Source of the DNA: Sulfurovum sp.
GTDB lineage: Bacteria; Campylobacterota; Campylobacteria; Campylobacterales; Sulfurovaceae
DNA: 46,507 bases
Direction of reading: 5' to 3'
NCBI RefSeq assembly: GCF_015493435.1
Contig: NZ_WGDD01000003.1
Location: 1-46,507, forward strand
Shown here in pieces: positions 3,136 through 30,493 of this stretch. Made by a program: the position numbers and the translations under genes. A model generated the notes under the pieces. It had not been told where the DNA came from, searched no databases, and was given only the letters and a program-made list of their open reading frames with translations. Position 1 is the stretch's first letter, and each line of letters begins with the position of its first letter.

Positions 3136-3184
3136 GGATCGCCCTCTTGTTTAATAGCATAGATTTTATCATGAGGCGCGTTAA

Positions 3185-3312: not shown

Positions 3313-3318
3313 TATAAT
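3313..3318 (+). promoter_or_regulatory. -10 box of the rpmI-rplT promoter
   Basis: TATAAT preceded by TTTGGG and T-rich tracts, 67 bp upstream of the L35 start. No recognisable -35 hexamer is present, as is usual for vegetative promoters of Campylobacterota. Confidence 0.6.
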
Positions 3319-3385
3319 ACTGTCCCATTTTATATCGATACAACCATGTTCTATTGAGATGAAAAATTCTAAAGGGAGTAAGCAT

Positions 3386-3577
3386 ATGCCAAAAATGAAA
3401 AGTGTAAAAGGCGCTGTAAAGCGTTTTAAAATAAAAAAAAGCGGCAAGATCAAAAGAGGGACTGCATATAGAAGTCACATTCTTACCAAAGTCGACGGCA
3501 AACACCACAGACAAATGAGAAGTTCCAAACATGTTGACGGCGCGGATGCTAAAAACATCAAAGAGATGATAAACTAA
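3386..3577 (+). CDS. rpmI: 50S ribosomal protein L35
   Basis: 63 residues beginning MPKMKSVKGAVKRF, the invariant L35 opening, and rich in Lys/Arg. L35 is a small protein of the large ribosomal subunit. I chose the ATG at 3386 over an upstream in-frame ATG because GGGAG lies just before it and the family begins exactly here. L20 follows 110 bp downstream in the same direction. infC and thrS are not upstream: the divergent neighbour is mutS7. In many bacteria infC-rpmI-rplT is one operon, and in Campylobacterota L35/L20 commonly stand apart. Confidence 0.97.
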   Translation: MPKMKSVKGAVKRFKIKKSGKIKRGTAYRSHILTKVDGKHHRQMRSSKHVDGADAKNIKEMIN

Positions 3578-5450: not shown

Positions 5451-5478
5451 AGTTCACCTCCTGGGGCGGGTTCGTTCT

Positions 5479-5670
5479 TTAGCTGCCGCACTTTTTAGCG
5501 GCTGCTTTTGCATCACCGCATTTTTTTGCCATGGTTTTATCTGTTTTTTTGTCACCCTGGCATTTACCCGATTGGCATTTGCTGCCTACTGTAGCATCTT
5601 TGCTGTCAGTACAGCCTGTAAATGCAACAAGTGCCAATCCGACAAGTGACCCCAATAAGATCTTTTTCAT
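5479..5670 (-). CDS. Small Cys-rich lipoprotein
   Basis: 63 residues: a signal with lipobox FTGC (Cys20), then a short mature part with CQSGKC, KKCGD and KKCGS. It shares the Cys-x3-GKC spacing of the peptide at the other end of the operon but is lipid-anchored and shorter, so the two may be a tethered and a free version of one metal- or thiol-handling peptide. This is inference. It is first in the operon, with AAGGAGA before its ATG. An inverted repeat lies in its leader. Confidence 0.65.
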   Translation of the reverse strand: MKKILLGSLVGLALVAFTGCTDSKDATVGSKCQSGKCQGDKKTDKTMAKKCGDAKAAAKKCGS

Positions 5671-5688
5671 TGTGTCTCCTTTCGATTC

Positions 5689-5704
5689 GGATAGATAGCT
5701 ATCC
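5689..5704. promoter_or_regulatory. Inverted repeat in the leader of the Cys-rich/DoxX operon
   Basis: GGATAG (5689-5694) and CTATCC (5699-5704) around ATAG. It lies between the ribosome-binding site and a TATACT-like -10 (minus strand, about 5720). It could be an operator for a metal- or redox-sensing repressor or simply a leader hairpin. Confidence 0.35.
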
Positions 5705-5790
5705 TTTAGACAGTACGAAGTATAATCTTTTGTACGTGTAAGGTTTGTGTACTCTTCTACACTGTTGTTACACAGATATTTGGTATTATA

Positions 5791-6056
5791 TTACCGCACC
5801 AACTAAATACCCAAAGGTTTGAGAGATCGAGATGAGGTGAGATGTGCGTGAAAAAATCTGAAGAACTGGCCGTAGTCAATTCAAAGATTTTTTTGCGTGC
5901 AGGTTGCCTCATATCGTTCTCCCCGACGGGTGCAGCACTTTCGCCCATACTCTGCGTTAGATTTTTTTGAATTCGCTAAGGCGAGTCCTTCAAAATCTGC
6001 CTTGATTATGAACGAAATTGCAGCATCAAACTTTTGGGTATTTAGTCGGTGTGGTA
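5791..6056. repeat. 266-bp imperfect palindromic element
   Basis: The outer arms 5791-5821 and 6027-6056 are reverse complements over about 30 bp with a few transitions. Both carry ACTAAATACCCAAA on the 5' side and its complement on the 3' side. A second inner pair (about 5859-5886 and 5965-5992) matches over about 27 bp. The whole stretch could fold into one long hairpin, and no convincing gene lies within it. It resembles a miniature mobile element (MITE) or an old palindromic repeat. It ends about 35 bp upstream of the dehydrogenase small subunit and separates it from the divergent Cys-rich operon. Confidence 0.65.
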
Positions 6057-15346: not shown

Positions 15347-15721
15347 TTATACAGCTATTTCGCCTAATCCAAACTCTACTTTAAATTCGGTTGCTTTCAC
15401 CTCAGGTATCACTCTGTTTTTTTCTTTATGCAACGCTACAATGCCATATCTCTCCAATGTCTTCAGCGTACGAGACAAATTAGACTTTTTTCTGCCTGTC
15501 ATCTCCTCAAGTTCTGCAAGAGAAGCAGGTTTCTTATCTAAAATTGTTCTAAGAAGCCGTCTGTTCTCATTACTGAGGATCTGAGACATAGACTTCAGAG
15601 ACTCGAACCAAATTTTCGGTTCATTCTTCTTTGGCGTGTATTCGCCTCTTGCTATAGCCATCGTTCTTTGCTTGTATGCCTCTTTAGACATAATCCCTAT
15701 ATAGATTGTTTTAGCTCTCAT
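15347..15721 (-). CDS. TumA-like winged-helix antitoxin
   Basis: 124 residues. A MarR/ArsR-like winged helix spans about 45-105 (LSNENRRLLRTILDKK, LAELEEMTGRKKSNLSRTLKTLERYGIVAL). The protein resembles the HVO_A0114 type of putative DNA-binding proteins that commonly accompany DUF6516 (TumE) toxins. The ATG at 15721 follows AGGAG, which overlaps the TAG stop of the upstream gene, so the two are tightly coupled. Likely role: binds the toxin and represses the operon at the palindrome near 16090. Confidence 0.75.
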   Translation of the reverse strand: MRAKTIYIGIMSKEAYKQRTMAIARGEYTPKKNEPKIWFESLKSMSQILSNENRRLLRTILDKKPASLAELEEMTGRKKSNLSRTLKTLERYGIVALHKEKNRVIPEVKATEFKVEFGLGEIAV

Positions 15722-15729
15722 ATTCACTC

Positions 15730-16089
15730 CTAATTGTGTTCCATATACTGTTCAACGCTGTTCCAAAAATCTTCTATAAGCTGCACTGCCGACTCAAACT
15801 CATAAGGGAAAGTTTCCATTCTTTTATGCAGATGATCCCAGGTCTCTTTCTTTGCACCATATTTACCTTTTCTTGGCTTGAAACTGTGTGCATTGTCATA
15901 ACCTATAACCCTATGATTACTTTTGTCGTGCAAAGTAAGAGAGTACCTGATACCATGAGGTATTTCTTTACTGACCTCTACCTTTTTGGCTTCAAACTTG
16001 ACCCAGTATTGATTATCCATAGGAAATATCTCACCGTCAAGCATCAGCAAGTTTTCAAGATCATTCACTAGAGTCCTTTTAGTTATCAT
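15730..16089 (-). CDS. TumE-like toxin (DUF6516 family)
   Basis: About 119 residues from the ATG at 16089; a GTG start at 16164 would give 144. Family pattern: LENLLMLDGEIF, YWVKFEAKKV, IRYSLTLHDKSNHRVIGYDNAHSF, and a C-terminal YEFESAVQLIEDFWNSVEQ helix. Known: DUF6516 proteins include TumE, the toxin of type II TA pairs with a DNA-binding partner. The antitoxin follows. A strong promoter's -10 lies at 16093-16098, so transcription should begin at or just after the ATG at 16089. The message would be leaderless, or the real start is a later Met (residue 16 or 24). Confidence 0.7.
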   Translation of the reverse strand: MITKRTLVNDLENLLMLDGEIFPMDNQYWVKFEAKKVEVSKEIPHGIRYSLTLHDKSNHRVIGYDNAHSFKPRKGKYGAKKETWDHLHKRMETFPYEFESAVQLIEDFWNSVEQYMEHN

Positions 16090-16121
16090 GGGATGATAAC
16101 ATGTTTTGTATGCTTTGTCAA
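16082..16121 (-). promoter_or_regulatory. TumE/TumA promoter with overlapping operator palindrome
   Basis: Minus strand: TTGACA (16121-16116), 17-bp spacer, TATCAT (16098-16093). The palindrome GTTATCAT-GGG-ATGATAAC (16082-16100) covers the -10 box and the first codon, a natural place for autorepression by the antitoxin. Confidence 0.75.
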
Positions 16122-16271
16122 TAATTTTAATACTCCCAAATTGATTTTGCTTCACTCTGATCACTAAAGTACAGGATATGGCATAGCCTTCTTTTCGGGA
16201 AGTTGCGAGATCTAATACCTGTTTAAGGTTGTTTTCATATAATAAATCAACATATATGATAAAGGATAAAT

Positions 16272-16535
16272 ATGAATACTATATCTATCTCAGAAATACA
16301 GAGAAATCTTCATAAATTGGACAATTTTGATATTGTTGAAGTGGTAGACAAGAAGCGTCATCAGGTAAAAGGATATTTTCTCGATAAAAAATACCATGAT
16401 GTCGTAGAAGCGCTTTTCCAGGAAAAAATGAATAAAAACCGGAAAAAACTTGATGCATTGGAAAGTTTGGGAACTTATGCTTTGGGCGGCAATGATATAG
16501 ATGAGATCAAAGAGCAGATGTATGATGATAAGTAA
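16272..16535 (+). CDS. Phd/YefM-like antitoxin
   Basis: 87 residues. The N-terminal half (ISISEIQRNLHKL...VVDKKRHQVKGYFL) has the Phd/YefM DNA-binding pattern. The C-terminal half is charged and probably unfolded until it wraps the toxin. The PIN toxin gene starts inside its last codons (11-bp overlap). AAAGGATAAAT lies before the ATG. A TATAAT at 16238-16243 is a likely -10. Confidence 0.75.
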   Translation: MNTISISEIQRNLHKLDNFDIVEVVDKKRHQVKGYFLDKKYHDVVEALFQEKMNKNRKKLDALESLGTYALGGNDIDEIKEQMYDDK

Positions 16536-16947
16536 GATTTTTTTTGATGCAAATATCATTCTGGATCTGATTGACAGCGACAGGGGAAACATCGAAGATG
16601 CGCGTACTTTGGTCTATAAAGCACTGACAAAAGGCATAACACTTTACACTTCATGTGATATTTTGAGTAATGTCTATTATGTTGCCAGACGAAAGATAAA
16701 AAAGGCCTCGCTTGTAGAAGAGATGTTGAGATTGATCGAGATTTTTGAAATTATACCGATAGATGGATCTGCAGCGGAAAATGCATTACTGGAAAATCAA
16801 AAAAACAGTGCTTTGGATTTTGAAGATCTTTTGCAAAGAGGGTGTTCCGAAAGGGCACAATGCGAAATGATAGTGAGCAACGATAAAAAATTTGTATCAG
16901 GCACGATCAAAGTGTTTTCTACAAAAAAGGCTTTGGAACATCTGTAA
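16525..16947 (+). CDS. VapC-like PIN-domain ribonuclease toxin
   Basis: About 140 residues from the ATG at 16525. PIN-domain acidic residues are visible: FFDANIILDLID at the N-terminus, a central Glu-rich helix (LVEEMLRLIEIFE), NSALDFEDLLQ, and a C-terminal MIVSNDKKF in the usual D/N-D place. PIN toxins cut RNA, often initiator tRNA or rRNA; the target here is unknown. It overlaps the antitoxin gene, the usual antitoxin-toxin order. Confidence 0.85.
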   Translation: MISKIFFDANIILDLIDSDRGNIEDARTLVYKALTKGITLYTSCDILSNVYYVARRKIKKASLVEEMLRLIEIFEIIPIDGSAAENALLENQKNSALDFEDLLQRGCSERAQCEMIVSNDKKFVSGTIKVFSTKKALEHL

Positions 16948-16993
16948 TAATTTGATGTATTAGCCAATTGTACGGCAATTGACCCAGAGTCTC

Positions 16994-17281
16994 CTATGCT
17001 ACAGCCTGCAGTCGTATTCCAAAGGCATTTAGTACTTTTATAACAGTTTCAAATTTGGGTTTTGCCCCTGCACGGAATGTCTTATAGAGACTCTCCCGTC
17101 CCAGGCCGGTTTCTTTCGCTATCTGCGTCATACCCTTTGCTTTGGCAATATGGCCTATGGCTCTCAAAAACTCCTCATTGTCGCCGTCTTCCAACACTTG
17201 AGAAAGATATTCGGCTATTGCTTCATCGCTGTCAAGATACTTCGCAATATCAAAAGGTATCAATTCATTGCTCATTGTCAT
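16994..17281 (-). CDS. HigA/addiction-module antidote-like XRE antitoxin
   Basis: 95 residues. The opening (ELIPFDIAKYLDSDEAIAEYL) followed by a helix-turn-helix (MTQIAKETGLGRESLYKTFR) is the putative addiction module antidote family. These proteins bind a RelE/HigB-type toxin and their own promoter. The gene looks intact. Its toxin, directly upstream with a 4-base ATGA overlap, is cut to 28 codons, so this is now an orphan antitoxin. It could still repress its promoter, neutralise a toxin encoded elsewhere, or be decaying. Confidence 0.85.
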   Translation of the reverse strand: MTMSNELIPFDIAKYLDSDEAIAEYLSQVLEDGDNEEFLRAIGHIAKAKGMTQIAKETGLGRESLYKTFRAGAKPKFETVIKVLNAFGIRLQAVA

Positions 17282-17364
17282 ACTCCTTTAGCAATACGTC
17301 CTTTCATATCTTTAAGTTTTAACAGCCACTTAGAGAAAAGATCTGTTTCTTTTATCTTATACAT
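17278..17364 (-). pseudogene. HigB/RelE-like toxin reduced to 28 codons
   Basis: MYKIKETDLFSKWLLKLKD matches the first 20 or so residues of the HigB-like toxins that pair with this antidote family. Only nine residues follow before a TGA stop that overlaps the antitoxin ATG. A whole toxin has about 100 residues. Start codon, stop codon and the antitoxin's ribosome-binding site (AAAGGAGT) are all preserved, so the loss looks like an internal deletion of the body of the gene. The remnant may act only as a leader peptide that keeps the antitoxin translated. Confidence 0.7.
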
Positions 17365-17368
17365 AATT

Positions 17369-17397
17369 AGTGTATCCTAAAAGATACAATTTGTCAA
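17369..17397 (-). promoter_or_regulatory. Promoter and operator of the HigBA remnant
   Basis: Minus strand: TTGACA (17397-17392), 17-bp spacer, TACACT (17374-17369). The spacer holds GTATC-N6-GATAC (17372-17387), likely the antitoxin's operator. The region 17398-17565 beyond it has no gene. Confidence 0.7.
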
Positions 17398-17565
17398 GGT
17401 AAATGATATGCATATATTTCTCCGTATTTAAATAAGATTATTTTAGCTGTTCATTTCTGGAAGTATTTAAAATATGACACATTGTCATATTTTATGATGA
17501 TAAGTATGGTTTTGGAACATTTTGAAATAATCCGGTATGGATTTTAGACCATAGTATTGTGATTC

Positions 17566-18279
17566 TTACCCTTTCAGGTCGATAATCCATGCATCCGGAA
17601 CGGCATAGGCAATGACCTCCCGGGCCAGGTTGCACCAGTGTGCTGTGCGGTCGAGTATGGCGGAGTCACAGCTGACGACGATGTGTCTGCTCTCTGTCAG
17701 CAGTGCATCGGTGCGGTCTGTCGTTTCGGTGGTGAAGGGCCAGTTGTGTGTATCGCCCACCTGTTGAACCATTCCGGCAAGCCTGCCGCTGTTGGAAACG
17801 GGCCTGTCAAAAAGCCAGTTGACCTGCTTTGGATGATGTTCGGCCAGCAGATTGCCGATGAGTTCAATGGCGGGGAGCGTCTCTTCGACCGGCCTGTAAC
17901 TGCCGTAAACGGAGGAAAGGTCACGGTAGCAGCCATCCAGACAGTCAAATACGGCACCGCCTCCAAGAGCGGTTTCGATGGTAATGATGAGATTGAACCC
18001 GTCAATGAGGATCTCACGCCCCTTCAGCGCCTCCAGGCCGACACGCTTCGACTGCCGCGCCGCGATCTTGCCATCCGCACAGGCTATCCGCCCGACGGCA
18101 AGTCTCTGACGCGTACTGAGCTGATGATGGTCACCCACCAGTGTCAATGCGGCTTTCATACTGTATCTCCGGCCAAGCAGCCATGACAGCTCTTCGACAG
18201 CCGTCGCAAGTTTCGGCAGCTGGCTTTTGGCAAAATACTCAGTATCTTTGGGATGGACACCGCGATGGCGCAGGGGCAT
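17566..18279 (-). CDS. DUF434 domain protein
   Basis: 237 residues. The N-terminal about 60 residues (MPLRHRGVHPKDTEYF, LPKLATAVEELSWLLGRRY) are the DUF434 pattern. The rest (EILIDGFNLIITIETAL, NWLFDRPVSNSGRLA, VVSCDSAILD) looks like a PIN- or NYN-like nuclease fold with conserved Asp residues, as in the DUF5616 region that follows DUF434. Function unknown. The base composition is clearly GC-richer than the flanking TA genes, so it was either acquired separately or is an older core gene caught within the island. AAGGAA precedes the ATG. Confidence 0.75.
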   Translation of the reverse strand: MPLRHRGVHPKDTEYFAKSQLPKLATAVEELSWLLGRRYSMKAALTLVGDHHQLSTRQRLAVGRIACADGKIAARQSKRVGLEALKGREILIDGFNLIITIETALGGGAVFDCLDGCYRDLSSVYGSYRPVEETLPAIELIGNLLAEHHPKQVNWLFDRPVSNSGRLAGMVQQVGDTHNWPFTTETTDRTDALLTESRHIVVSCDSAILDRTAHWCNLAREVIAYAVPDAWIIDLKG

Positions 18280-18400
18280 GTATATTCCTTTTTAGAGGTT
18301 CTTCTTTGGTTTATTCTATCATATCCTTTTGGAGAAAGTGTTTTTTAATATAGCCCCTTTTGATAGTATCACCAGACCCCTTGCCTCCATTTTCAGTTTC

Positions 18401-18443
18401 GGTATCAGGATTAAAGTTATTTTAATGTGATACCGTATATAAT
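18401..18443 (+). promoter_or_regulatory. Inverted repeat and -10 box of the PIN/RHH module
   Basis: GGTATCA (18401-18407) and TGATACC (18428-18434) form an inverted repeat just upstream of TATAAT (18438-18443). A short palindrome TGATAGTATCA also lies at 18361-18371. Likely operator for the antitoxin. The rest of 18280-18449 has no gene. Confidence 0.5.
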
Positions 18444-18449
18444 ACCATT

Positions 18450-18860
18450 ATGGCAAATATTGTAATAGACACAAATGTATTACTCGCTGCTGTTTTTTCA
18501 AATAGAGGAGCTAGTTATAAATTATTATCTATCATAGACAGTGAAAAATTTACAGTAAATATTTCTATTACTCTTTTATATGAATATGAAGAGATATTAA
18601 AATTAAAATCTAAGTTGGGTACATCCTATGTAAATGCCATTTTAGATTATATTTGTTTAATTGGGAAGAAAAACAGTATCTTCTATCTTTGGAGACCCAA
18701 GTTAAAAGATGTGGATGATGACTTTTTATTGGAACTTGCAGTCAAATCAAACTCCATTATAGTTACACTCAATGGTAAAGATTTTAAACCTGCTTCAGAG
18801 TTTGGTATTAAAGTTATGACACCTAAAGAATTTTTACAACATATAGGAGAAATATCATGA
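18450..18860 (+). CDS. PIN-family toxin
   Basis: 136 residues. It opens IVIDTNVLLAAVFSNRGASYKLL, the start of the PIN_3 type (putative TA toxin component). LYEYEEIL gives the conserved acidic residues, DVDDDFLLELAVKSNS the D-D pair, and IIVTLNGKDF the last Asp. Probably an RNA-cutting toxin. Its antitoxin overlaps its end by 4 bp (ATGA), so toxin precedes antitoxin, opposite to the PIN module at 16525. Confidence 0.88.
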   Translation: MANIVIDTNVLLAAVFSNRGASYKLLSIIDSEKFTVNISITLLYEYEEILKLKSKLGTSYVNAILDYICLIGKKNSIFYLWRPKLKDVDDDFLLELAVKSNSIIVTLNGKDFKPASEFGIKVMTPKEFLQHIGEIS

Positions 18861-19093
18861 AAACAATGAGTTTAAGAATGCCTGACTATTTAAAAAATGC
18901 TGTCAATGATGTCTGTGCAAATGAAAAAATCTCACTCAATCAATTTATAGTCAATGCTTTAAGTGAAAAAGTTTCTGCTTTACAGACTTTAGACATCATA
19001 GAAAAAAGAGCTGAAAGGGCTTCAAAAGAGTCATTTTTAGAGGCTTTAAGTAAAGTACCAAGTGTTGAACCTGATGAAAGAGATAAATTATAG
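18857..19093 (+). CDS. Ribbon-helix-helix antitoxin
   Basis: 78 residues. MKTMSLRMPDYLKNAVNDVCANEKISLNQFIVNALSEKV is a ribbon-helix-helix of the HicB/CopG sort, with a first strand (SLRMP) and two helices. The charged C-terminal tail (about 50-78) is the likely toxin-binding part. Partner of the PIN protein just upstream. Confidence 0.82.
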   Translation: MKTMSLRMPDYLKNAVNDVCANEKISLNQFIVNALSEKVSALQTLDIIEKRAERASKESFLEALSKVPSVEPDERDKL

Positions 19094-20208: not shown

Positions 20209-20760
20209 TTGAAAAAAAACGAGAAAATAACCAAAGTTGATTATGCGTTTGAACGTATTAAGAAAGTATTGAAGGTCGGTACATATAAATCATGCTTGGA
20301 ATATCTTGGCATAAAAAGAGGGACATTTGATACATGGAAAAGCCGCGGCGAGATACCTGACTCAAAACTTTACAAAATAGCATCAAAGCTTGGTGTTAGT
20401 AAAGAATGGCTTGAATTTGATGATGGTGTAATGCTTGCAGGAGAAGGACAAGGCGCAGTGAGAGATCAAGGGAGGTGGTATGGACACAAGGAGATCGTTT
20501 TACCTTACTATTCTGAAAACTATGCCAGTGCCTGCGGCAGTGCATTCAACGGGTTTGATGCGAGTTCGCCTGTGAGCATCAGCCGCGATTTGCTACAATC
20601 GTACTTCGGGATATCTGCTGCGAAAGGGCAGCACCCCATCACCAAAGAGTACACGTTTATATGCGACAACCCGGACGTAGCCGACATCACATTCATCATC
20701 GACGAGAGCAGCGACTGCAAGTTCATTGGCCGTGTGGTCGGCAGTATGGGAGTGGTGTGA
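20209..20760 (+). CDS. CI-type phage-repressor-like HTH protein without the S24 protease core
   Basis: 183 residues. Residues about 10-70 are the CI-repressor helix-turn-helix (YKSCLEYLGIKRGTFDTWKSRGEIPDSKLYKIASKLGVS). The rest resembles a LexA/CI C-terminal region at both ends only: LPYYSENYASACGSAFNG...ISRDLLQSYFGIS at the start, and FICDNPDVADITF...KFIGRVVGSMGVV at the end. The middle, which should hold the catalytic Ser (GDSMxP) and Lys, is missing between AAKGQ and HPITKEY. It should therefore not self-cleave upon RecA activation. The start is TTG at 20209. The HipA-like kinase follows after 2 bp. Confidence 0.75.
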   Translation: MKKNEKITKVDYAFERIKKVLKVGTYKSCLEYLGIKRGTFDTWKSRGEIPDSKLYKIASKLGVSKEWLEFDDGVMLAGEGQGAVRDQGRWYGHKEIVLPYYSENYASACGSAFNGFDASSPVSISRDLLQSYFGISAAKGQHPITKEYTFICDNPDVADITFIIDESSDCKFIGRVVGSMGVV

Positions 20761-20762
20761 TA

Positions 20763-21602
20763 ATGGTTCAGATAGATCTGCTTGACGCGCTACGTCCTGT
20801 GCGACTAAATGTACCAGATAGAGATGGCAGGTTTTTTGTGCTTGTGGAAGCGAGTGACGGCTGCATATACCAGGTCAAGTTCAATACACCAAACACTACT
20901 TCAAACCAAAATGAATTTATAGGGTACATGATTGCCAAAGAGTGTGGTGTTCCTGCTATAGACGGAGCATTGCTTAAAATCGACAAGACAGTATTTGATA
21001 GCATTATTAATAGGGTGTCCAAATATAAAGTTGTGCCGCCTGTTGATATTTATAGACAAAATATCATGTTTGGTGTTTTATGGAAAGATGTGAGTGTTAC
21101 ACCGCAGACGAATGAACAGCTGTCGGTGATGATTGATGGTTGCAGAAACAAGCAATCCTTTTACTCCATATTCCCCTATGATCAATACCTTAGAAACTAT
21201 GATAGGCAGCCTTTTAATCACTTGATACTTCTGGAGGGAGCAAACAGAAAACCGACATTCTACGCTGCTATAGATACAGACAGGATATTCGGTAACCTAA
21301 ACTGGGATCGCGCAGCTTATGAAAAAGAGCTTTACGACTGTTTCCACGAGTCTTTTCATGATTTTCTCTACAGTCTCATAGATGATAGCTCTTTTACAAA
21401 TATCTTTCGTAGTGCCGGGAAAATAGACTGTATACCGGATGACTACTTGCACAACATTGTAGATACAGTTGATAGACTCTATGTCTGCGATAATGATAAA
21501 CTTGCTATAATTAGAGAGTTTCTTGTTGATCGGAAAGTTCAGATCATTGACAAATGCGCAAAAGCTTTGTGCTTTAAAAATGTGCGCCAAAAGGGGCTTT
21601 AA
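20763..21602 (+). CDS. HipA-like kinase
   Basis: 279 residues. It resembles the single-domain HipA-like kinase family: a GCIYQVKFN strand with a likely ATP-site Lys39, EFIGYMIAKECGVPAIDGALL helix and strand, the catalytic-loop pattern NYDRQPFNHLIL (Asp147, Asn152) and a metal-binding Asp171 in AAIDTDR. All three key residues are present, so it should be active. HipA kinases phosphorylate proteins such as GltX and cause growth arrest; this family's target is unknown. It lies between the HTH protein and, with no gap (TAAATG), the next gene. The ATG at 20763 follows the upstream stop by 2 bp. Confidence 0.75.
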   Translation: MVQIDLLDALRPVRLNVPDRDGRFFVLVEASDGCIYQVKFNTPNTTSNQNEFIGYMIAKECGVPAIDGALLKIDKTVFDSIINRVSKYKVVPPVDIYRQNIMFGVLWKDVSVTPQTNEQLSVMIDGCRNKQSFYSIFPYDQYLRNYDRQPFNHLILLEGANRKPTFYAAIDTDRIFGNLNWDRAAYEKELYDCFHESFHDFLYSLIDDSSFTNIFRSAGKIDCIPDDYLHNIVDTVDRLYVCDNDKLAIIREFLVDRKVQIIDKCAKALCFKNVRQKGL

Positions 21603-22424
21603 ATGTTGGATTTTATTAATGACAAAACGACAAATACATTAAGAACAATCCTTTACGCCCCTATACGCCTACACATAACAGGTACAGGCGAAACTATCAA
21701 TATAGGCGTGTCTTTGACTGATGGAGACGAGTATGTATTCAAAACGATTCCATCATTCGACACGATAGACAAATGTGTACATATAGAAAATACCAGAGCA
21801 TTCGATTTTGTTCTAAAGCAGATTAACGAAAAATACCATCACCCAGATGTTGCGTCACGTGTGCATGTTTCAAAAACAATATATATAGATGAAGCCGTAC
21901 CGTACATGGCGTCCGATGATCTTCATGCCACAGCAGAGAAACTCTTTGAACAGATGGTTACAATCTATGAGCCACGTACAATAAAAAATAATGATAGATC
22001 ATCTAATGCTATCGTGTCGCATATTAAAATGATAGCCTCGGATCGATTCAATGACCATATTGTTTTTAGAAAACATATTCAGGAAGCATTTAACAAGCAG
22101 ATAGATACCGTGGTTGAAAACGATGAGCGCAATCCTATAGTGCTTGGAGAGGTGTGCTCCCCCGTGGTTTCCTCTTTTCATCATGATGTTGCAACATCTA
22201 TTATGGCGCTTGAAATGTCCATGCGTATGGTTGCCTCAACCCTACTGTATATGCCGGCATACAGAGGGTTGAAGTCGTCAGTTGTAGACACTTACCGGTA
22301 TGCCATGCAAACAGCAAGAGAGAAAAGAATAGAGGTGATAGATACGACTGATGCTGATGAGTTTGCTGGGATAATTGCAGACGTCGCGGCCGCTAATGGA
22401 GTCATCATTGAGACTGGCCAATAG
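21603..22424 (+). CDS. DUF3037-like partner of the HipA-like kinase
   Basis: 273 residues. The first 65 (LRTILYAPIRLHITGTGETINIGVSLTDGDEYVFKTI) resemble the DUF3037 pattern, whose core is a strand followed by the (V/I)NVGV motif; here it reads INIGVSL. DUF3037 proteins of about 120 residues are frequent neighbours of HipA-like kinases. This one is twice as long, with an additional helical region (about 110-273) that I do not recognise. It starts immediately after the kinase stop codon. Possible roles are antitoxin, kinase substrate or sensor; the sequence does not decide. Confidence 0.5.
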   Translation: MLDFINDKTTNTLRTILYAPIRLHITGTGETINIGVSLTDGDEYVFKTIPSFDTIDKCVHIENTRAFDFVLKQINEKYHHPDVASRVHVSKTIYIDEAVPYMASDDLHATAEKLFEQMVTIYEPRTIKNNDRSSNAIVSHIKMIASDRFNDHIVFRKHIQEAFNKQIDTVVENDERNPIVLGEVCSPVVSSFHHDVATSIMALEMSMRMVASTLLYMPAYRGLKSSVVDTYRYAMQTAREKRIEVIDTTDADEFAGIIADVAAANGVIIETGQ

Positions 22425-23185: not shown

Positions 23186-23900
23186 ATTTATATGGGTATT
23201 GGTTAAACGTCAACCCACTCGTTAATTTGTGTTCTCATATTTTACCCTTCTATGATATTATATACTACTCAATGTTCATGAAAGCGAACACTGAAACTCA
23301 TTAATATTCCTTTTTTGCGTCACTAAATCTAACACAAAAAGTAAAATAAGTCAATTAAAATACATCAATTTTCATTCAATTTTTAAAAATCTCCGTTTTT
23401 GGCACACTTTAGGGCAGAGGTGTCTGGTGACAACTAACAACTTTCTCAGTCACAACTTCCGGCAATAACCGGAAGAAAAGGAGAAAAGGGATACGAGGTG
23501 ATAATGATAGCTCAGTTTCAGCTGCTTTTGAAGTGCCCAATACTTTTCTATTTCTATGCTGAGAATAGCCCTTGTTCATTGGTATTTATGATTTATTTGT
23601 TACGCTCTTTTATGGTCTGTGCATCTGAAAAAACATCTTTTGTAATTTTTACACACAGGATTTTTATCTATGTTGCAAGCCTTTATCAGAGAAGATATTT
23701 TTTTGAGTTTGTGAAGGATGCTGATATAAGCTTTCCTGTAAAATATTTTCTTGATCCCTTCAATATCTTTATCTTTACCAAAATTTTGTACGACCCAAGC
23801 ATTTGCAAATGATCTGGTAGGTTTTTTGTGAATCTTGATTTGATAAAAATGAGACGTATTGTCCGTTGTTTTATTGTCTTCGATTAGAGTAAAATTTATT
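23186..23900. other. Gene-poor spacer between two defence-like modules
   Basis: I see no convincing gene in these 715 bases, although weak frames exist on both strands (about 105 codons each, overlapping). It is AT-rich. It holds a REP-like partial repeat (about 23417-23432), a hairpin CTTCCGG-CAATAA-CCGGAAG (23456-23475) and, at its right end, the leader of the XRE gene. It may contain the debris of a former gene. Confidence 0.4.
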
Positions 23901-24137
23901 ATGACAGATGAAGAACAAGAACTATTAAACAAACTTGCAAAAAGAATAAAATATCAAAGAAATAAACTTGGTATTTCTCAAGAGAAATTAGCGGAAAAAT
24001 GTGAATTTGATAGAACATATATAAGTTTGCTGGAAAGAGCAAAGCGGAATCCATCTTATTTAAGCTTGAAAAAATTATGTCATGGTTTAGAAATTGAATT
24101 AAGCGATTTATTGAAAGAATCTATAATAGATGACTAG
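23901..24137 (+). CDS. XRE-family regulator
   Basis: 78 residues, nearly all one helix-turn-helix domain: LAKRIKYQRNKLGISQEKLAEKCEFDRTYISLLERAKRNPS. The shape is that of restriction-modification controller proteins and small phage-type regulators. It overlaps the helicase gene by 8 bp, so it is probably the regulator of that operon. The ATG at 23901 is chosen because the family begins here. Very AT-rich, like the next three genes. Confidence 0.8.
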   Translation: MTDEEQELLNKLAKRIKYQRNKLGISQEKLAEKCEFDRTYISLLERAKRNPSYLSLKKLCHGLEIELSDLLKESIIDD

Positions 24138-26106
24138 AGCTTATTATTCAAATACTATAAAGAATTTTTTACATGATAGTAATAATGATATTTTAGGACA
24201 ACTCGCAAGACATCATAATCATGCATTAGAAGACTTACAGAGAAATGCGTGGTTAAAACAAATCGATATTTTAAAAAATACATTACAATATTTTGAAAAA
24301 GATGGATATATATTTTTTGAATTTGCAATTCCTAGAATGGGGAAAAGAGTTGATAATATTATCATCATAGATGATTCAGTTTTTATTATTGAATTTAAAG
24401 TTGGATCAATTACATATGATAATTATGCTATTGAACAAGTTTTAGATTATGCAGTAGATTTAAAAAATTTTCATGAAGGAAGTCATGATAATAAACTCTT
24501 TCCTTTTCTCATAGCTACAGAAGCTAATCCTGTAAATAATAAAGTTGAAATTTTAGATGAAAAGCTATTTAATCCATTACTTGTAAATAAAGACACAATA
24601 CTTGAAAACATTAAAGCTTGCTTGACATATAGTAATACAAATAAAATTGATCCACTTCTTTGGGCTAATGCAATTTATAAACCTACACCAACAATTATCG
24701 AAGCAGCACAAGCTTTATATAAAGGGCATAACGTCAAAGAAATATCTCGTTCAGATGCTGGAGCTATAAATTTATCTATTACAACTGAGAAAATTAATGA
24801 AATTATAGAATATTCAAAAAGCAATAATTTGAAATCTATATGTTTTATAACGGGTGTTCCTGGTGCAGGTAAAACACTTGCTGGTTTAAATATTGCAAAT
24901 GAAAGAATGAATATCGATGAAAATGAACATGCAGTGTTTTTATCAGGGAATGGCCCATTGGTTGAGGTTTTACGAGAGGCATTAACAAGGGATGAAGTTT
25001 CAAATGCAAAAGAAAATGGAAAAAGGTTAACAAAAAGAGAAGCTGCAATTAAATCTCATGCTTTCATTCAAAATATACATCATTTTAGAGATGATGCATT
25101 AATCAATGACAAGGCTCCTATAGAAAAAGTCGTAGTATTTGATGAAGCCCAAAGAGCATGGGACAAAAAACAGACAAGCAATTTTATGCAAAGAAAAAAA
25201 GGTCAAGATAACTTCAATGTCTCAGAACCCTATTTTTTAATAGAAGTTATGAATAGGCATGCTGATTGGTGTACAATTATATGTTTAATTGGTGGCGGGC
25301 AAGAGATTAATGTAGGTGAAGCAGGTTTAGAAGAATGGATAAGTTCATTAAAAAATAATTTTTTTGAATGGAATGTATTTTACTCAAATTTAATTATAGA
25401 AGATAAAAATTATTTGAAAAATAATGATTTAAAACAATGGCTAAAAGAGAATGCTAAAGCTGAAGAAAACTTACATTTATCAGTATCTGTCCGTTCCTTT
25501 AGATCTGAAAAATTATCTGAATTCATACACTCTGTACTTGATATAAACTTACTAAAATCTAAAGAAATATATAAGCAGTATATAAAAAATCATTATCCAA
25601 TTAAAATTACTAGAAATTTTGAGAAGGCAAAACAATGGATAAAAGGAAAAACACTTGGAAGTGAAAGAAATGGTGTGGTTGCATCTTCTGGTGCATATAG
25701 ATTAAGACCTTATGCAATTAATGTAAAAAGTAAAATAGATGCACCTATTTGGTTTTTGAATGGTAAAAATGATGTTCGTTCTTCATGTTTTCATGAAGAA
25801 ATAGCAACAGAGTTTGATATTCAAGGCTTAGAATTAGACTGGATATGTGTATGTTGGGATGGTGACTTTTATCTAAAAAATAATGAATGGATATATAGGA
25901 AGTTTAAAGGTACCAAATGGCAAAACATACATAAAGAGATTACAAAAAACTATTTATTAAATGCTTATAGAGTATTGTTAACTAGAGCAAGACAAGGAAT
26001 GATAATATTTATTCCCTATGGATCAAAAGAGGATAAAACTAGACTACCTGAGTATTATGATGCTACATTTAAGTACTTAAAGGAAATTGGAATTGAAGAG
26101 GTTTGA
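24130..26106 (+). CDS. PD-(D/E)XK nuclease fused to Schlafen-type (DUF2075) helicase
   Basis: 658 residues. N-terminal part (about 50-140): FEFAIPRMGKRVDNIIIIDDSVFIIEFKVG, a PD-(D/E)XK nuclease core with an Asp followed by the E-x-K pair. Central to C-terminal part: a DUF2075/SLFN group-3 helicase with Walker A GVPGAGKT (about 241), Walker B VVFDEAQRAW (about 335), an ICLIGGGQEINVGEAG motif (about 390), SVSVRSFRS, EFDIQGLELDW, and NAYRVLLTRARQGM (about 620, an arginine-finger-like motif VI). It would be a motor coupled to a nuclease, typical of phage-defence genes. The four-gene cluster is AT-rich, indicating transfer. Confidence 0.8.
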   Translation: MTRAYYSNTIKNFLHDSNNDILGQLARHHNHALEDLQRNAWLKQIDILKNTLQYFEKDGYIFFEFAIPRMGKRVDNIIIIDDSVFIIEFKVGSITYDNYAIEQVLDYAVDLKNFHEGSHDNKLFPFLIATEANPVNNKVEILDEKLFNPLLVNKDTILENIKACLTYSNTNKIDPLLWANAIYKPTPTIIEAAQALYKGHNVKEISRSDAGAINLSITTEKINEIIEYSKSNNLKSICFITGVPGAGKTLAGLNIANERMNIDENEHAVFLSGNGPLVEVLREALTRDEVSNAKENGKRLTKREAAIKSHAFIQNIHHFRDDALINDKAPIEKVVVFDEAQRAWDKKQTSNFMQRKKGQDNFNVSEPYFLIEVMNRHADWCTIICLIGGGQEINVGEAGLEEWISSLKNNFFEWNVFYSNLIIEDKNYLKNNDLKQWLKENAKAEENLHLSVSVRSFRSEKLSEFIHSVLDINLLKSKEIYKQYIKNHYPIKITRNFEKAKQWIKGKTLGSERNGVVASSGAYRLRPYAINVKSKIDAPIWFLNGKNDVRSSCFHEEIATEFDIQGLELDWICVCWDGDFYLKNNEWIYRKFKGTKWQNIHKEITKNYLLNAYRVLLTRARQGMIIFIPYGSKEDKTRLPEYYDATFKYLKEIGIEEV

Positions 26107-26166
26107 AACAACTTAATATGTGCCATTTTATATTCAATTTTGGGAAAATATATAAAAAGGAAATCA

Positions 26167-27075
26167 ATGGTTTTTAAGAAGATTGATGACAAAAGTCAAG
26201 AGATATCTATTCTCAAAAATTTACTGAAAGAAAGTAATAGTGAAAAGCAAAAATCTTTTATACAAAAAGATATTACATCATTGGAAAATGGCTACAAAGC
26301 AGAAAAAGAAAATGCTTATTATCTTGATTTTCATTTTGAAAGCAAAGATAGACTTGTGTTATTACATGATATAAGAATAGAGCACAAGGGAAGAACCGCA
26401 CAGTTTGACCATATACTCATTGCACCACTGGGCATAACTATTTTGGAAAGTAAAAGTTTTCAAGGTGAATTGACGATAAAAGATGATAACTCATTGGTTG
26501 TGAAATACGGGAAATACACTAAAACATTTCCAAACCCTATAGAACAGAATATCCGTCATGAAAAAGTTTTATATGATTTCATTCATGATGCTTTGGAAAT
26601 ACCTGTACGATTTAAATTGATGGGAGGTATCCCTATAGATAATAAAGTACTTATTCATCCAAATACAACAGTGACCAATAATCATCTGCCAGAAGGTTTT
26701 GAGAGAAGTGATGCTTTTGCATCAAGAAGAAATCAAGACATAGACAAAATGGGAGTAACTAAGACCTTATTGTCGACTGTAACATTTATAACAAAAGATT
26801 TTACCAAAGAAATTGCAGATGATTTAATCAAAGCACATACCCCTGTAAAATTTAATTATACTACCAAGTATAGAGTAAGTCAAAAAGAGTCTCAAATGCC
26901 TAAGCAGCCTGTTGGAGCAAAAGAAAATGTGGAAGAGAAAATTTGCCCCCGATGTAAAGAGGGTAGGTTGGTTAAGAGAAAACGTAAATCTAAAAAGTTT
27001 GGTACTCAGTATGCTTCTGATGAATTTTATGGGTGCAATAGATTTCCAAAGTGTCGATATACTGAGGAAATTTAA
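26167..27075 (+). CDS. NERD nuclease-related protein with C-terminal Zn ribbon
   Basis: 302 residues from the ATG at 26167, which AAAAGGAAA precedes; an upstream TTG at 26140 would add nine. The NERD core reads LENGYKAEKENAYYL, VLLHDIRIEHKGRTAQFDHILIAPLGITILESKSF, giving the E...D...E-x-K nuclease set. The C-terminus has CPRCKEGRLVKR...YGCNRFPKC, a topoisomerase-type zinc ribbon that binds DNA. It is likely a DNA-directed nuclease of the Mrr-related fold. The stop codon overlaps the next ATG (TAATG). Confidence 0.85.
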   Translation: MVFKKIDDKSQEISILKNLLKESNSEKQKSFIQKDITSLENGYKAEKENAYYLDFHFESKDRLVLLHDIRIEHKGRTAQFDHILIAPLGITILESKSFQGELTIKDDNSLVVKYGKYTKTFPNPIEQNIRHEKVLYDFIHDALEIPVRFKLMGGIPIDNKVLIHPNTTVTNNHLPEGFERSDAFASRRNQDIDKMGVTKTLLSTVTFITKDFTKEIADDLIKAHTPVKFNYTTKYRVSQKESQMPKQPVGAKENVEEKICPRCKEGRLVKRKRKSKKFGTQYASDEFYGCNRFPKCRYTEEI

Positions 27076-27947
27076 TGGCACAAAAAGACTGGGAAGAAGT
27101 TATAGGGATTATCGAAGATAAATCACCCGGACTTTTTAAAAAATTTCTAATATCGGAACAAAGTTTCTTGCCAAACGAAACTTTTCCCAATCCTTTCAAT
27201 GAGGAACACTCAAACTTCAGTGCTTCTGACCTTGGTAAGGGGAAACCGGGACAATGGATCCCGGTATATTACACCAAAGACATTCCTGAATATTTTCGGG
27301 AAAACAGTGTAGTACCTGTAAGAGCAGGGCCGGCGGAATTCTTTTTTTATAAGGGTGAAGTTTTTTTCGATCTGAAGAGCGTCGATTTTGAGAAGATAGA
27401 CACAGATAGGATCAACCCTATAGAAAGTTATATCCCCGTTACGCTCAAGGCAAAGTTTCAGAGAAATGAAAATGCCTACCTGAACAAAGCCATTGCACTT
27501 GGGTACATCAATCATTTTGTAGATGATGTCGGGCTTGCCGTATTTGAACATGAGATAGAAACAAAGACTCATAAACGCCTGCTTTATGGACAATTCGGGA
27601 AGATAAAAATAACCAACCCTCTACAGTTTAAAACAAGCAAAGGAAGCAAAACCCTTCACCCCGGATTTCAGTTTGAAATAGACCTTGTTCTTGAAAACAG
27701 GGATGAGATCATTATCTTCGAAGCCAAGACAGGAAGCAAACCCTTCGACAACTTCTCCATCCTCCAACTCTACTACCCCTTGATCTACCTGCGATCGATC
27801 ATCGACGAACCAAAGCCGATACGTACCATCTTCATGGACATCACCGCAACCGAAAAAAAAGAAGCCTACCGCCTGCTGGAAGTCCGTTTTAATGAAGACC
27901 TGTTTGATGAGCTTGAAGTTCTATCTGCGTGTAAGTATGTGAAATAG
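27075..27947 (+). CDS. PD-(D/E)XK nuclease-like protein
   Basis: 290 residues. The C-terminal half holds FEIDLVLENRDEIIIFEAKTG, with E201, D203, E216 and K218 as the likely active site, then a Gln/Tyr helix (FSILQLYYPLIYLRSI). The N-terminal 120 residues are not recognised. It is probably the endonuclease of the operon that begins with the XRE gene. The 3' half of the gene is GC-richer than the preceding genes, and its last 180 bp recur in diverged pieces at 28581, 29639 and 30415. Confidence 0.7.
   Translation: MAQKDWEEVIGIIEDKSPGLFKKFLISEQSFLPNETFPNPFNEEHSNFSASDLGKGKPGQWIPVYYTKDIPEYFRENSVVPVRAGPAEFFFYKGEVFFDLKSVDFEKIDTDRINPIESYIPVTLKAKFQRNENAYLNKAIALGYINHFVDDVGLAVFEHEIETKTHKRLLYGQFGKIKITNPLQFKTSKGSKTLHPGFQFEIDLVLENRDEIIIFEAKTGSKPFDNFSILQLYYPLIYLRSIIDEPKPIRTIFMDITATEKKEAYRLLEVRFNEDLFDELEVLSACKYVK
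27771..27947 (+). repeat. Repeat copy A (3' end of the nuclease gene)
   Basis: Complete parental copy. Its head (27771-27874) matches 28581-28683. Its tail (27875-27947) matches 29641-29712 and 30421-30493. The head-tail junction is ACCGCCT followed by GCTGGAAG. Confidence 0.85.
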
Positions 27948-28068: not shown

Positions 28069-28299
28069 ATGTCGTGGGAAGTTACTTTTTATAGTGAACG
28101 GGTTGAGAAAGAGATACTGGGCTTTCTTGCCGGGATATTGGCTGATCTTTTACATATATTGGAAATGATTGGACGATCCTTTTTTGCAATAGTCGTTAAT
28201 GATGAGATCGTTATCTTGCATTCTTTTGTAAAGAAATCCCAAAAAACACCTAAAAAAGAACTTGACAAAGCACGAAAAAGACTCAAGGAGTTACAATGA
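28069..28299 (+). CDS. HigB/Gp49-like toxin with central deletion
   Basis: 76 residues. The N-terminus (MSWEVTFYSERVEKEILGFLAGILADLL) and C-terminus (IVILHSFVKKSQKTPKKELDKARKRLKEL) match the phage-derived Gp49-like/HigB toxins. Those have about 105-115 residues. The middle block, which contains the GLxELR(V/A)K strand and helps form the RNase site, is absent: LEMIG runs straight into RSFFAIVV. So the frame is kept but the toxin is probably inactive or altered. The antitoxin overlaps by 4 bp. Confidence 0.72.
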   Translation: MSWEVTFYSERVEKEILGFLAGILADLLHILEMIGRSFFAIVVNDEIVILHSFVKKSQKTPKKELDKARKRLKELQ

Positions 28300-28580
28300 G
28301 CAGAACATCATTAAAAGAATTTAAAGAGAAAGCGTTTCTCAATAGAGCAGTAGAAAAAGAATACAATGCTTTAAAACCGGAATACATCATTAAGAAAAAA
28401 CTTATTGCAATGCGCAAAGAGGCAGGACTGACCCAGGAAAAACTGGCTGAACTCATGGGGACAAAAAAGAGCAATATTTCAAGACTTGAGAGCTTTAAAA
28501 ACAATATATCTCCACGGATCGATACTTTAATGAGCTATGCCAAAGCTACAGGACATGAGCTGAAAGTAGATTTTGTGTGA
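28296..28580 (+). CDS. HigA-like XRE antitoxin
   Basis: 94 residues. A basic N-terminal arm (SLKEFKEKAFLNRAVEKEYNAL) is followed by a helix-turn-helix: LIAMRKEAGLTQEKLAELMGTKKSNISRLES. This is the usual partner of Gp49-like toxins, in toxin-antitoxin order with an ATGA overlap. It appears intact. Confidence 0.85.
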   Translation: MSRTSLKEFKEKAFLNRAVEKEYNALKPEYIIKKKLIAMRKEAGLTQEKLAELMGTKKSNISRLESFKNNISPRIDTLMSYAKATGHELKVDFV

Positions 28581-28683
28581 TACTCCCCCTGATCTACCTG
28601 CGATCGATCATCGACGAACCAAAGCCGATCCGTACCATCTTCATAGATATCACCGCAACCGAGAAAAAAGAAGCCTACCGCCT
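28581..28683 (+). repeat. Repeat copy B, head part
   Basis: About 103 bp almost identical to 27771-27874 of the nuclease gene (the visible differences are few and mostly silent). It ends at ACCGCCT, exactly at the head-tail junction. The next TA module's promoter begins three bases later. Confidence 0.85.
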
Positions 28684-28747: not shown

Positions 28748-29089
28748 ATGTTGGAAGCGATTTTTGGATCTAAAAACCGTGAACGTGTATTGCAGTTTAT
28801 TCTTGCCAATGATGAAGGATATGCTAAAGAGATAGCCGATTTTTACGGTACCAGTTTAGACCCGATTCAAAAGCAGTTGGAAAAACTGGAGTTGGGCGGT
28901 GTCTTGGTCAGTAAAAATGTAGGGCGTACACGACTTTTTATGTTCAATCCGCGCTATGCTTTTCTAAATGAACTGAAAGCCCTTTTGGAAAAAGCAAGAA
29001 GTTACTATAGTGCAGAAGAGATAGAAAAACTGACAATGAGGCGAAAACGCCCAAGAAGAACAAAAAAACCTATGGTAAAGTCTTCATGA
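28748..29089 (+). CDS. Winged-helix antitoxin-like regulator
   Basis: 113 residues. LEAIFGSKNRERVLQFILANDEGYAKEIADFYG...IQKQLEKLELGGVLVSKNVGRTRLF is a winged helix of the ArsR/MarR sort with a wing ending in NPRYAFLNEL. The tail is very basic (MRRKRPRRTKKP). It is common as the first gene of nucleotidyltransferase TA pairs, like the AbiEi/AbiEii arrangement. It overlaps the next gene by 4 bp. Confidence 0.75.
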   Translation: MLEAIFGSKNRERVLQFILANDEGYAKEIADFYGTSLDPIQKQLEKLELGGVLVSKNVGRTRLFMFNPRYAFLNELKALLEKARSYYSAEEIEKLTMRRKRPRRTKKPMVKSS

Positions 29090-29619
29090 AAAGTATTAAA
29101 GAGATGAGTATGGAAGAGCTGGCAGCTTACATATGCAGAGAACTTGAAAAGGAAGGAATAGAAACTGTCCTTTCAGGCGGTTCCTGTGTACAGATCTATT
29201 CTCAGGGAAAATATACTTCAGATGACATAGATCTCATTGACAGGTATAACGGAGGTCATACTAAAATTAAAAATGTAATGCTAAGACTTGGTTTTAAAGA
29301 ATATAATCGTTATTTTGTACATGATGACACATCGTTATTTATTGAATTCCCACGTGGCCCTTTAGGGGTAGGAGATGCACCAGTAAGTGAGGTGGCATCA
29401 AAAGAAGAGGAGACTGGTATATTGAAGTTACTTACTCCGACTGACTGCATAAAAGACAGACTTGCAGCATATTTTCACTGGGATGACCTGCAGAGTCTGG
29501 AGCAGGCAGTTTGGGTAGCAGAACAAAATGAGTACGATATGAAATCTGTTCAAAAATGGGCAAAGAACGAAAAAGAGATTGAAAAATTTGAGATTTTCAG
29601 GAGTCGATTGAAAAAATAA
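29086..29619 (+). CDS. Nucleotidyltransferase-fold toxin-like protein
   Basis: 177 residues. The nucleotidyltransferase signature is visible: VLSGGSCVQIYSQGKYTSDDIDLI, i.e. G-G-S followed by D-x-D, plus a later acidic residue in FIEFPRG. Then comes LLTPTDCIKDRLAAYFHWDDLQSLEQAVW, the helical segment typical of AbiEii/MNT-like enzymes. Such enzymes can add nucleotides to proteins or tRNAs. Paired with the winged-helix protein it forms an antitoxin-first TA module. The target is not known. Confidence 0.75.
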   Translation: MKSIKEMSMEELAAYICRELEKEGIETVLSGGSCVQIYSQGKYTSDDIDLIDRYNGGHTKIKNVMLRLGFKEYNRYFVHDDTSLFIEFPRGPLGVGDAPVSEVASKEEETGILKLLTPTDCIKDRLAAYFHWDDLQSLEQAVWVAEQNEYDMKSVQKWAKNEKEIEKFEIFRSRLKK

Positions 29620-29638
29620 CTGAAAGTAAAACCCACCA

Positions 29639-29712
29639 CCTTCTGGAAGTCTGTTTCAAAAATGATATGTTTGATGAGGTTGAGGTTGTTTCTGCGTGCA
29701 AGTATGTGAAAA
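29639..29712 (+). repeat. Repeat copy B, tail part
   Basis: About 72 bp matching the tail of the nuclease gene (27875-27946), with about 11 differences. It still reads LEVCFKNDMFDEVEVVSACKYVK but lacks the stop codon. Together with 28581-28683 it makes one copy split by the winged-helix/nucleotidyltransferase module. Confidence 0.8.
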
Positions 29713-29847: not shown

Positions 29848-30084
29848 ATGACAGTATCCATAAAAAAATGGGGTAATTCTTTAGCCTTGCGAATACCGAA
29901 AGACATAGCCAGAACATTGCACATAGAAAATAATTCTATTCTTGAATTAAACATACGGAATGGAGCACTTGTCCTGGAACCACAAAATGAAACATTATTG
30001 GAAAGTTTAGTATCTCGTATAGATTCTGACAACCTGCATGCTGAAGTAGACACAGGTAAGGCAGTGGGTAATGAAGAGTGGTGA
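29848..30084 (+). CDS. mazE: MazE-like antitoxin
   Basis: 78 residues. MTVSIKKWGNSLALRIPKDIARTLHI is the MazE/AbrB swapped-hairpin DNA-binding domain, and the acidic tail (about 50-78) is the toxin-binding part. The ATG at 29848 follows GAAAGG. It overlaps mazF by 14 bp. Confidence 0.9.
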   Translation: MTVSIKKWGNSLALRIPKDIARTLHIENNSILELNIRNGALVLEPQNETLLESLVSRIDSDNLHAEVDTGKAVGNEEW

Positions 30085-30412
30085 TTATGTACCCGACAGA
30101 GGTGATATAGTCTGGTTAAACTTCACACCACAAACAGGACATGAGCAAAGAGGCAAACGCCCAGCGCTTATACTGTCACCTAAAATTTATAATGAAAAGA
30201 CTTCGTTATGTATTTGCTTACCTATTACCTCAAGAGTAAAAGGCTACCCATTTGAAGTACCATTGCCAAAAGATTCAGAAGTAACAGGTGTTATACTCTC
30301 AGATCAAGTCAAAAACCTGGATTATGTAGCAAGGAAAGTATCTTATATATGTGAAGTACCTCATGATGTGTTAGTCCATGTTCAGAAGAATGTATTGGCT
30401 TTGCTGGGGTAG
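30071..30412 (+). CDS. mazF: MazF-like endoribonuclease toxin
   Basis: 113 residues, full family length. YVPDRGDIVWLNFTPQTGHEQRGKRPALILSP is the MazF/PemK start with the catalytic Arg in the GKRPALI loop. ICLPITSRVKGYPFEVPL and GVILSDQVKNLDYVAR give the Thr/Ser and the second active-site region. It cuts mRNA at short motifs. Of the island's toxins this one looks the most complete. Repeat copy C starts just after its stop. Confidence 0.93.
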   Translation: MKSGDYVPDRGDIVWLNFTPQTGHEQRGKRPALILSPKIYNEKTSLCICLPITSRVKGYPFEVPLPKDSEVTGVILSDQVKNLDYVARKVSYICEVPHDVLVHVQKNVLALLG

Positions 30413-30414
30413 CT

Positions 30415-30493
30415 GCCGCCTGCAGGAAGTCCGTTTTAATGAAGACCTGTTTGATGAGGTGGAGGTTGTATCTGCGTGTGAGTATGTGAAATA
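30415..30493 (+). repeat. Repeat copy C (tail only)
   Basis: CCGCCTGCAGGAAGTCC opens a 79-bp stretch matching the nuclease-gene tail with about six differences. It reads QEVRFNEDLFDEVEVVSACEYVK with no stop. The matching head is absent. It starts at the same junction at which copy B is split. The remaining 30494-30661 has no gene. Confidence 0.8.

Follow-up and report, generated by a model that had tools for sequence, protein, structure and literature searches.

Within a 46,507-nucleotide stretch of Sulfurovum sp. DNA (contig NZ_WGDD01000003.1; hereafter the window), the gene cluster at 23901-27947 begins with a gene for an XRE-type regulator and a gene for the nuclease-helicase PDC-S41 (hereafter S41). 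Together with their operator (23843-26106), these two genes are read as the functional unit, a methylase-less nuclease-helicase defence module that would be timed by a restriction-modification (R-M) controller (C) protein. A probability of roughly 0.6 is assigned to this reading, the activity of the module being deduced from its parts. The two-gene reading is built on the observed module borders, C protein, operator, intact motifs and missing methylases. The original prediction had presented four genes of the cluster as one defence operon; that claimed four-gene system is reduced here to one two-gene candidate, with the following features:

23853-23878, + strand: predicted C-box operator, consisting of a GAC-N5-GTC left half-site pair (GACGTATTGTC), CGTTG and a degenerate right site (TTTTATTGTC)
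23901-24137, + strand: XRE gene, assigned as an R-M controller (C) protein; 78 aa; HTH_3 7e-13 (Pfam)
24130-26106, + strand: PDC-S41 (S41), N-terminal PD-(D/E)XK-type nuclease domain and superfamily 1 (SF1) Schlafen-group-3 helicase; 658 aa; PF09848, PDLC05014

A controller protein and its operator precede the nuclease-helicase

The best solved relatives of the XRE protein are C.BclI (7e-10), C.Esp1396I (2e-8) and C.AhdI (5e-7), and its best PADLOC call is Control_protein (3e-16). The XRE start codon lies 22 bp downstream of the operator, GACGTATTGTCCGTTGTTTTATTGTC, whose pattern finds a single match in the window at no more than 3 mismatches, with a shuffle expectation of 0.00. It resembles the sequence of the Esp1396I operator. 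The GAC/GTC layout that it shows, a dyad followed by a weaker second site, is that described for C-boxes (PMC3758141). With both a relation to solved C proteins and a two-site C-box just upstream, the XRE protein is identified by its sequence as an R-M controller protein.

The arrangement is shared in part with C-controlled type II R-M systems (Esp1396I, AhdI, BclI, PvuII), which have the same C family, a GAC-N5-GTC operator with a weaker second site, and a nuclease gene that begins within the C gene. It differs in that the window contains no methyltransferase and the 'R' gene encodes a Schlafen-type nuclease-helicase, not a simple restriction endonuclease (REase). The methylase had already been noted as missing, and the absence extends beyond the neighbourhood: none of PF00145, PF02086 and PF01555 was found in the window genome (61 contigs, 99.6% complete; type I PF02384 was not searched). 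The cognate methyltransferase of a type II R-M system is lacking, in line with the earlier view that this is not classic restriction-modification.

Comparisons covered 175 genomes of the same family and a further 35 S41 loci, totalling 429 kb, from other genomes. The operator is conserved in genomes G063 and G164 and degenerate in Marinirhabdus. In G063 the same operator is followed by the C protein (90%), S41 (83%) and then a tyrosine integrase, and the window segment 23843-26106 aligns with this genome at 82% over 2267 bp, an alignment that opens at the C-box and ends at the stop codon of S41. G164 (L086 3136-5085) has a C-R-M arrangement, in which the same operator and a C protein (81%) precede an HNH endonuclease gene with a convergent C5 methylase, and a divergent NERD gene adjoins; the presence of the same C protein and operator before these genes indicates that effectors have been exchanged behind the C module. 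The pair kept in G063 has an independent counterpart in Marinirhabdus, where a C-like gene overlaps S41 behind the degenerate operator. C control of PDC-S41 is new; otherwise S41 is a known candidate.

Architecture of the S41 nuclease-helicase

No named system had been recognised in the cluster, and a PADLOC search corrected this, returning the listed phage-defence candidate PDC-S41 for the second gene. S41 matches PDLC05014 (PADLOC-DB v2) over its full length (E 9e-291; residues 1-657 of 658 to profile 1-652/657), as a single-gene nuclease-helicase, and 28/28 aligned homologues match PDC-S41 as well. The window copy differs from the listed candidate in being preceded by a C protein and a C-box, the PDLC05014 model covering one gene only. 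The helicase motor proposed earlier is evident from the match to SLFN-g3_helicase (PF09848, E 6e-79) and from the Walker A motif GVPGAGKT (242-249) and DEAQ motif (338-341), both invariant in the homologues. The three PD-(D/E)XK-type nuclease signatures of the cluster are likewise borne out, since their motifs are invariant in the alignments of S41 (D75, E88-x-K90, in 28 homologues), NERD (D81, E94-x-K96) and DUF6997 (D203, E216-x-K218).

In the AlphaFold2 (AF2) model of S41 (predicted local distance difference test, pLDDT, 82.5), a nuclease-like alpha/beta domain at approximately 1-190 is joined to an SF1 motor, and the best folds returned by Foldseek are SLFN11, SLFN14, Upf1 and RecD-like SF1 helicases; a search by sequence gave no significant solved relative. 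Through PF09848, S41 falls among the Schlafen group III helicases and shares the helicase family and best PDB fold with the human members SLFN11 and SLFN14. It differs from them in the N-terminal domain, which carries a D..ExK motif, and in having no Schlafen core RNase domain, the Pfam search of S41 having returned only PF09848 and ResIII. At 24130-24700 of the window, S41 from residue 1 aligns with SLFN14/SLFN11 from ~390, in the part that precedes the Schlafen helicase, with a high root-mean-square deviation; a common origin of this part and the S41 nuclease domain is possible, the Schlafen linker perhaps being a nuclease domain that has decayed.

Nhi (S. epidermidis SERP2475) and AbiO also combine an N-terminal nuclease and an SF1-type helicase in one protein with no methylase. 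S41 differs from both in failing their models: it gave no match to Nhi PDLC02372 at E 0.05, which places it outside Nhi, and a few relatives match at Walker A only (E ~1e-5 to 1e-3). Nhi itself is a single-gene nuclease-helicase linked to the phage single-stranded DNA-binding protein (PMC12904381).

Distribution and mobility of S41

S41 is present in 4/175 family genomes and is usually a lone gene. Its relatives at 50-73% identity are spread over Bacteroidota, Campylobacterota, Proteobacteria, one Gracilibacteria record and marine Thaumarchaeota, although the Gracilibacteria record and some other assignments of metagenome-assembled genomes may be binning errors. Among plasmid and phage records, S41 occurs on two Persicobacter plasmids (64%) and in one phage-like record (49%).

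In five Bacteroidota loci (L100, L101, L102, L104, L114), S41 is bounded by attC-like sites or a matching cassette edge. Of five such sites that were folded, four give a long bottom-strand attC stem with terminal GTTA/TAAC pairing that is clearly more stable than in shuffled sequences (z from -2.1 to -4.1), and the fifth has z -1.1. A XerC/integron-type integrase, which passes NF040815 and fails TIGR02249, lies directly upstream of S41 in L114 and two ORFs (open reading frames) upstream in L101. In some Bacteroidota, S41 is evidently a single-gene integron-type cassette. A second mode is seen in L106, where S41 stands alone between 307-bp direct repeats that are 98% identical (3082-3388, 5452-5758). 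Shorter direct repeats surround S41 in L108 and L117; because such repeats also flank 3/156 control genes, L106 alone is convincing, and its arrangement is assigned as an insertion with long target duplication. PDC-S41 is seen here to move in both of these ways, and since the cassette and the repeats each carry S41 alone, they strongly indicate that a single gene is enough to form the unit.

Proposed function of the C protein-S41 module

By analogy with known C systems and from the architecture of the C-box, a weak C promoter would yield little C protein on entry into a cell. C dimers would then fill the strong left GAC-N5-GTC site, activating the C-S41 operon, and subsequently occupy the weak right site, repressing it, such that the nuclease would appear late and be held at a set level. 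S41 would be the effector. Judging from its motifs and fold, the SF1 motor may load on a DNA end, on single-stranded or on replicating DNA and unwind it, while the N-terminal PD-(D/E)XK domain may cut in a manner coupled to the motor. As the methylase classes usual in type II systems are missing from the genome, self and non-self are probably not told apart by methylation. They may be distinguished by DNA state (ends, single-stranded DNA, phage replication intermediates), as in Nhi, or by the modification of the invader, as in type IV enzymes; for how self is spared, Nhi-like state sensing is our first choice and modification dependence the second.

Several points weigh against this reading. 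The majority of S41 genes lack an accompanying C protein, indicating that the family does not depend on C control, and the neighbours of S41 are often housekeeping genes, which makes a repair role possible. The defence function is a prediction from the PADLOC candidate listing, the mobile context and the domain content; the label 'PDC' denotes predicted only, and a search of the literature on PDC-S41, DUF2075 and prokaryotic PF09848 Schlafens found nothing in the library covered.

The housekeeping neighbours, together with the similarity of the SF1 fold to RecD, UvrD and HelD, would suit a DNA repair or recombination nuclease-helicase of the RecBCD/AddAB or HelD kind with no role in defence. 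This is nonetheless unlikely, given how sparse S41 is in the family, its transfer across phyla and into archaea, its integron cassette and integrase contexts, and its control by a C protein. Less probable still is a modification-dependent (type IV) enzyme formed by S41 and the C protein, which would cut methylated or otherwise modified incoming DNA. A methylase-free host would suit such an enzyme, which would have no need of a methylase, and no C5, D12 or N6/N4-type methylase occurs in the genome; McrBC-like enzymes, moreover, have a helicase plus nuclease layout, which S41 shares. The Pfam search, however, gave no modification-reading domain in S41, and the family also occurs in genomes whose methylation was not checked.

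C proteins are accounted for by the requirement that DNA be methylated before it is cut. Tentatively, and with a little less than an even chance of being right, we propose that the C-protein timer was captured by a Schlafen-type nuclease-helicase to give an immune module that is autonomous and has no methylase, an event that may have happened twice independently (Campylobacterota, Marinirhabdus). If so, delayed expression, regarded as a safeguard for the cell while methylation is still incomplete, would also serve nucleases with no need of it, and the delay could, for example, let the incoming carrier DNA establish before the nuclease appears. A conserved unit of C-box, C protein and nuclease-helicase in a genome that lacks the usual type II methylases makes the methylate-first explanation directly testable, by raising the question of what a delay guards where no DNA is methylated.

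The four adjacent genes form a mosaic

The horizontal acquisition and the nuclease-rich, defence-like character attributed to the locus are upheld, and its four ORFs lie on one strand at exactly the coordinates given before, XRE and S41 overlapping by 8 bp, S41 and NERD separated by a 60-bp gap (26107-26166), and NERD and DUF6997 overlapping by 1 bp. The second half of the cluster comprises:

26167-27075, + strand: NERD nuclease with a C4 Zn ribbon; PF08378 1e-17 and a topoisomerase-type Zn ribbon
27075-27947, + strand: DUF6997, predicted orphan type II restriction endonuclease; PF22518 6e-20

The claim that all four genes form one operon-system does not survive comparison, as their homologues are scattered and unlinked and only the XRE-S41 pair is conserved. 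In the family genomes, close NERD relatives occur in ~12 and DUF6997, full or partial, in 13-15, and no contig besides the window carries S41 together with NERD or DUF6997. On one G164 contig, which has no S41, a NERD gene lies 2.2 kb from a 3' fragment of DUF6997. Profile searches of the 35 other S41 loci found DUF6997 in 0, NERD in 1 and an adjoining C-type XRE in 2. The co-occurrence search that had been suggested for the gene families thus returned scattered single-gene homologues without linkage. NERD relatives adjoin cysteine-biosynthesis, radical-SAM or MutS-like genes and DUF6997 relatives adjoin dnaE or methylases, the names of these neighbours being derived partly from their sequences.

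Homology at the DNA level follows the same divisions. For NERD it is confined to ~26154-27077 in other genomes, with unrelated neighbours there, and for DUF6997 it begins at the ATG (27074 onward, to 27947), again at unrelated sites. These breaks at the module borders show the cluster to be a mosaic of three separately mobile pieces. GC content is 0.27 in XRE, 0.285 in S41, 0.32 in NERD and 0.41 in DUF6997, with 0.46-0.48 in the flanking housekeeping genes; the DUF6997 gene therefore differs in composition from the first three, and the AT-rich composition reported for the cluster holds for XRE, S41 and NERD and not really for DUF6997. An empty-site comparison around murE did not fix the island ends, the gene order of the relatives being too divergent.

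The cluster is accordingly assigned as a chance line-up of separately mobile pieces, not one system, in which NERD, a separate mobile gene, DUF6997 and the toxin-antitoxin (TA) cassettes downstream appear as separate acquisitions now beside XRE-S41. A new multi-nuclease defence operon, in which the C protein drives a polycistron and three nucleases cooperate, would account for the close spacing and shared strand, and could draw on Noviherbaspirillum (L121), where a distantly related NERD gene (26-28%) is divergent to S41, and on the C gene divergent to NERD in G164. It is very unlikely and largely refuted by the comparisons, with no linkage in any other S41, NERD or DUF6997 locus examined, homology ending exactly at the gene borders, unlike GC between the modules, and S41 moving alone.

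DUF6997, a probable restriction enzyme family with an orphan copy in the window

DUF6997 relatives adjoin a C5 methyltransferase in G065 (with Vsr) and G163, and in G003/G010 a D12 adenine methylase is followed by a DUF6996-DUF6997 protein of greater length. Because the family adjoins methyltransferases elsewhere, it most likely consists of type II REases. The copies in G115/G102 lie next to dnaE with no adjoining methylase, and none stands beside DUF6997 in the window; with the three methylase families absent from this genome, the gene is orphaned there, its motif still intact. The AF2 model (six sequences) is too poor to rely on (pLDDT 53.6), with weak matches to the Cas4-like ACE1 and to HincII. 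Searches gave no significant solved relative by sequence, no literature on DUF6997 and, among the plasmid and phage records, no plasmid copy. That DUF6997 is a working restriction enzyme in the C-driven transcript, protected by some unspecified modification, is barely plausible despite its intact catalytic residues and TAATG coupling to NERD, given that the genome has no partner methyltransferase of the three families searched, that the G115/G102 copies are also without an adjoining one, and that the gene stands first in an array containing fragments of its own 3' end.

A toxin-antitoxin array seamed by DUF6997 3' ends

The TA array with its REase-derived seams is a further finding that was not planned. 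The 3' end of DUF6997 (80-200 nt, 79-95% identical), which lies at 27776-27946 in the gene itself, is repeated after each of three cassettes:

28069-28580, + strand: HigBA-type toxin-antitoxin cassette; HigB with an internal in-frame deletion
28581-28683, + strand: DUF6997 3'-end fragment; gene nt 697-800; 94-95% identical
28748-29619, + strand: winged helix-turn-helix (HTH) and nucleotidyltransferase-like pair (cassette); same pair in G066
29629-29711, + strand: DUF6997 3'-end fragment; nt 788-870
29848-30412, + strand: MazEF cassette; 94% identical cassette in G122
30413-30493, + strand: DUF6997 3'-end fragment; nt 792-872; begins right after the MazF stop codon

In all three window cassettes the fragment begins 0-10 nt past the TA stop codon. 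HigB (28069-28299) has 76 aa, against 106 aa in G094, and ~30 internal residues of the G094/G065 copies are missing; it is probably an inactive toxin beside an intact antitoxin.

Within the genus, seams of this kind separate TA cassettes in six or more genomes (the window; L089-L094), and the junction between the MazF stop codon and the fragment is identical in the window genome (G000) and G122. Four DUF6997 fragments are present in G122, HigBA lies between fragments in G094, a TumE pair lies between gene and fragment in G065, and G074 and G066 also show the pattern. At one shared place in the fragments, a GC-rich hairpin-like insert (..GATACCCCC..GTTAAAAC..GAGGGGTGCG..) is found in G065, in G074 and twice in G094:

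L091 5009-5065/4773-4904 and 5794-5931: GC-rich hairpin-like insert
L092 7301-7500: GC-rich hairpin-like insert
L089 11720-11893: GC-rich hairpin-like insert

A TA pair and its fragment most likely move as a unit that would integrate by recombination at DUF6997 3' ends. The products of such events would match insertion with long target duplication, a term of Kobayashi and colleagues as given in PMC3031569, which for R-M genes cites Nobusato et al. 2000. The duplicated flanks, namely the 307-bp repeat of L106 and the DUF6997 3' ends around the TA cassettes, are the common feature; the difference is that the payload here is a lone nuclease-helicase or TA pairs, the REase gene being the repeated target. 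An integron origin of the seams was rejected, with z of -0.3 to -1.4, no attC-like stem and no integrase seen in the window.

Upstream, at 20209-22424, three overlapping or adjacent ORFs (HTH, weak HipA_2-like, and a third without assignment) give a weak match to the defence candidate PDC-M66A (E 0.0055). Further TA genes lie at 15347-19093, including TumE with an HVO_A0114-type HTH, two PIN toxins and an HI1420-type antidote. By its predicted gene content, the window holds a TA-dense island.

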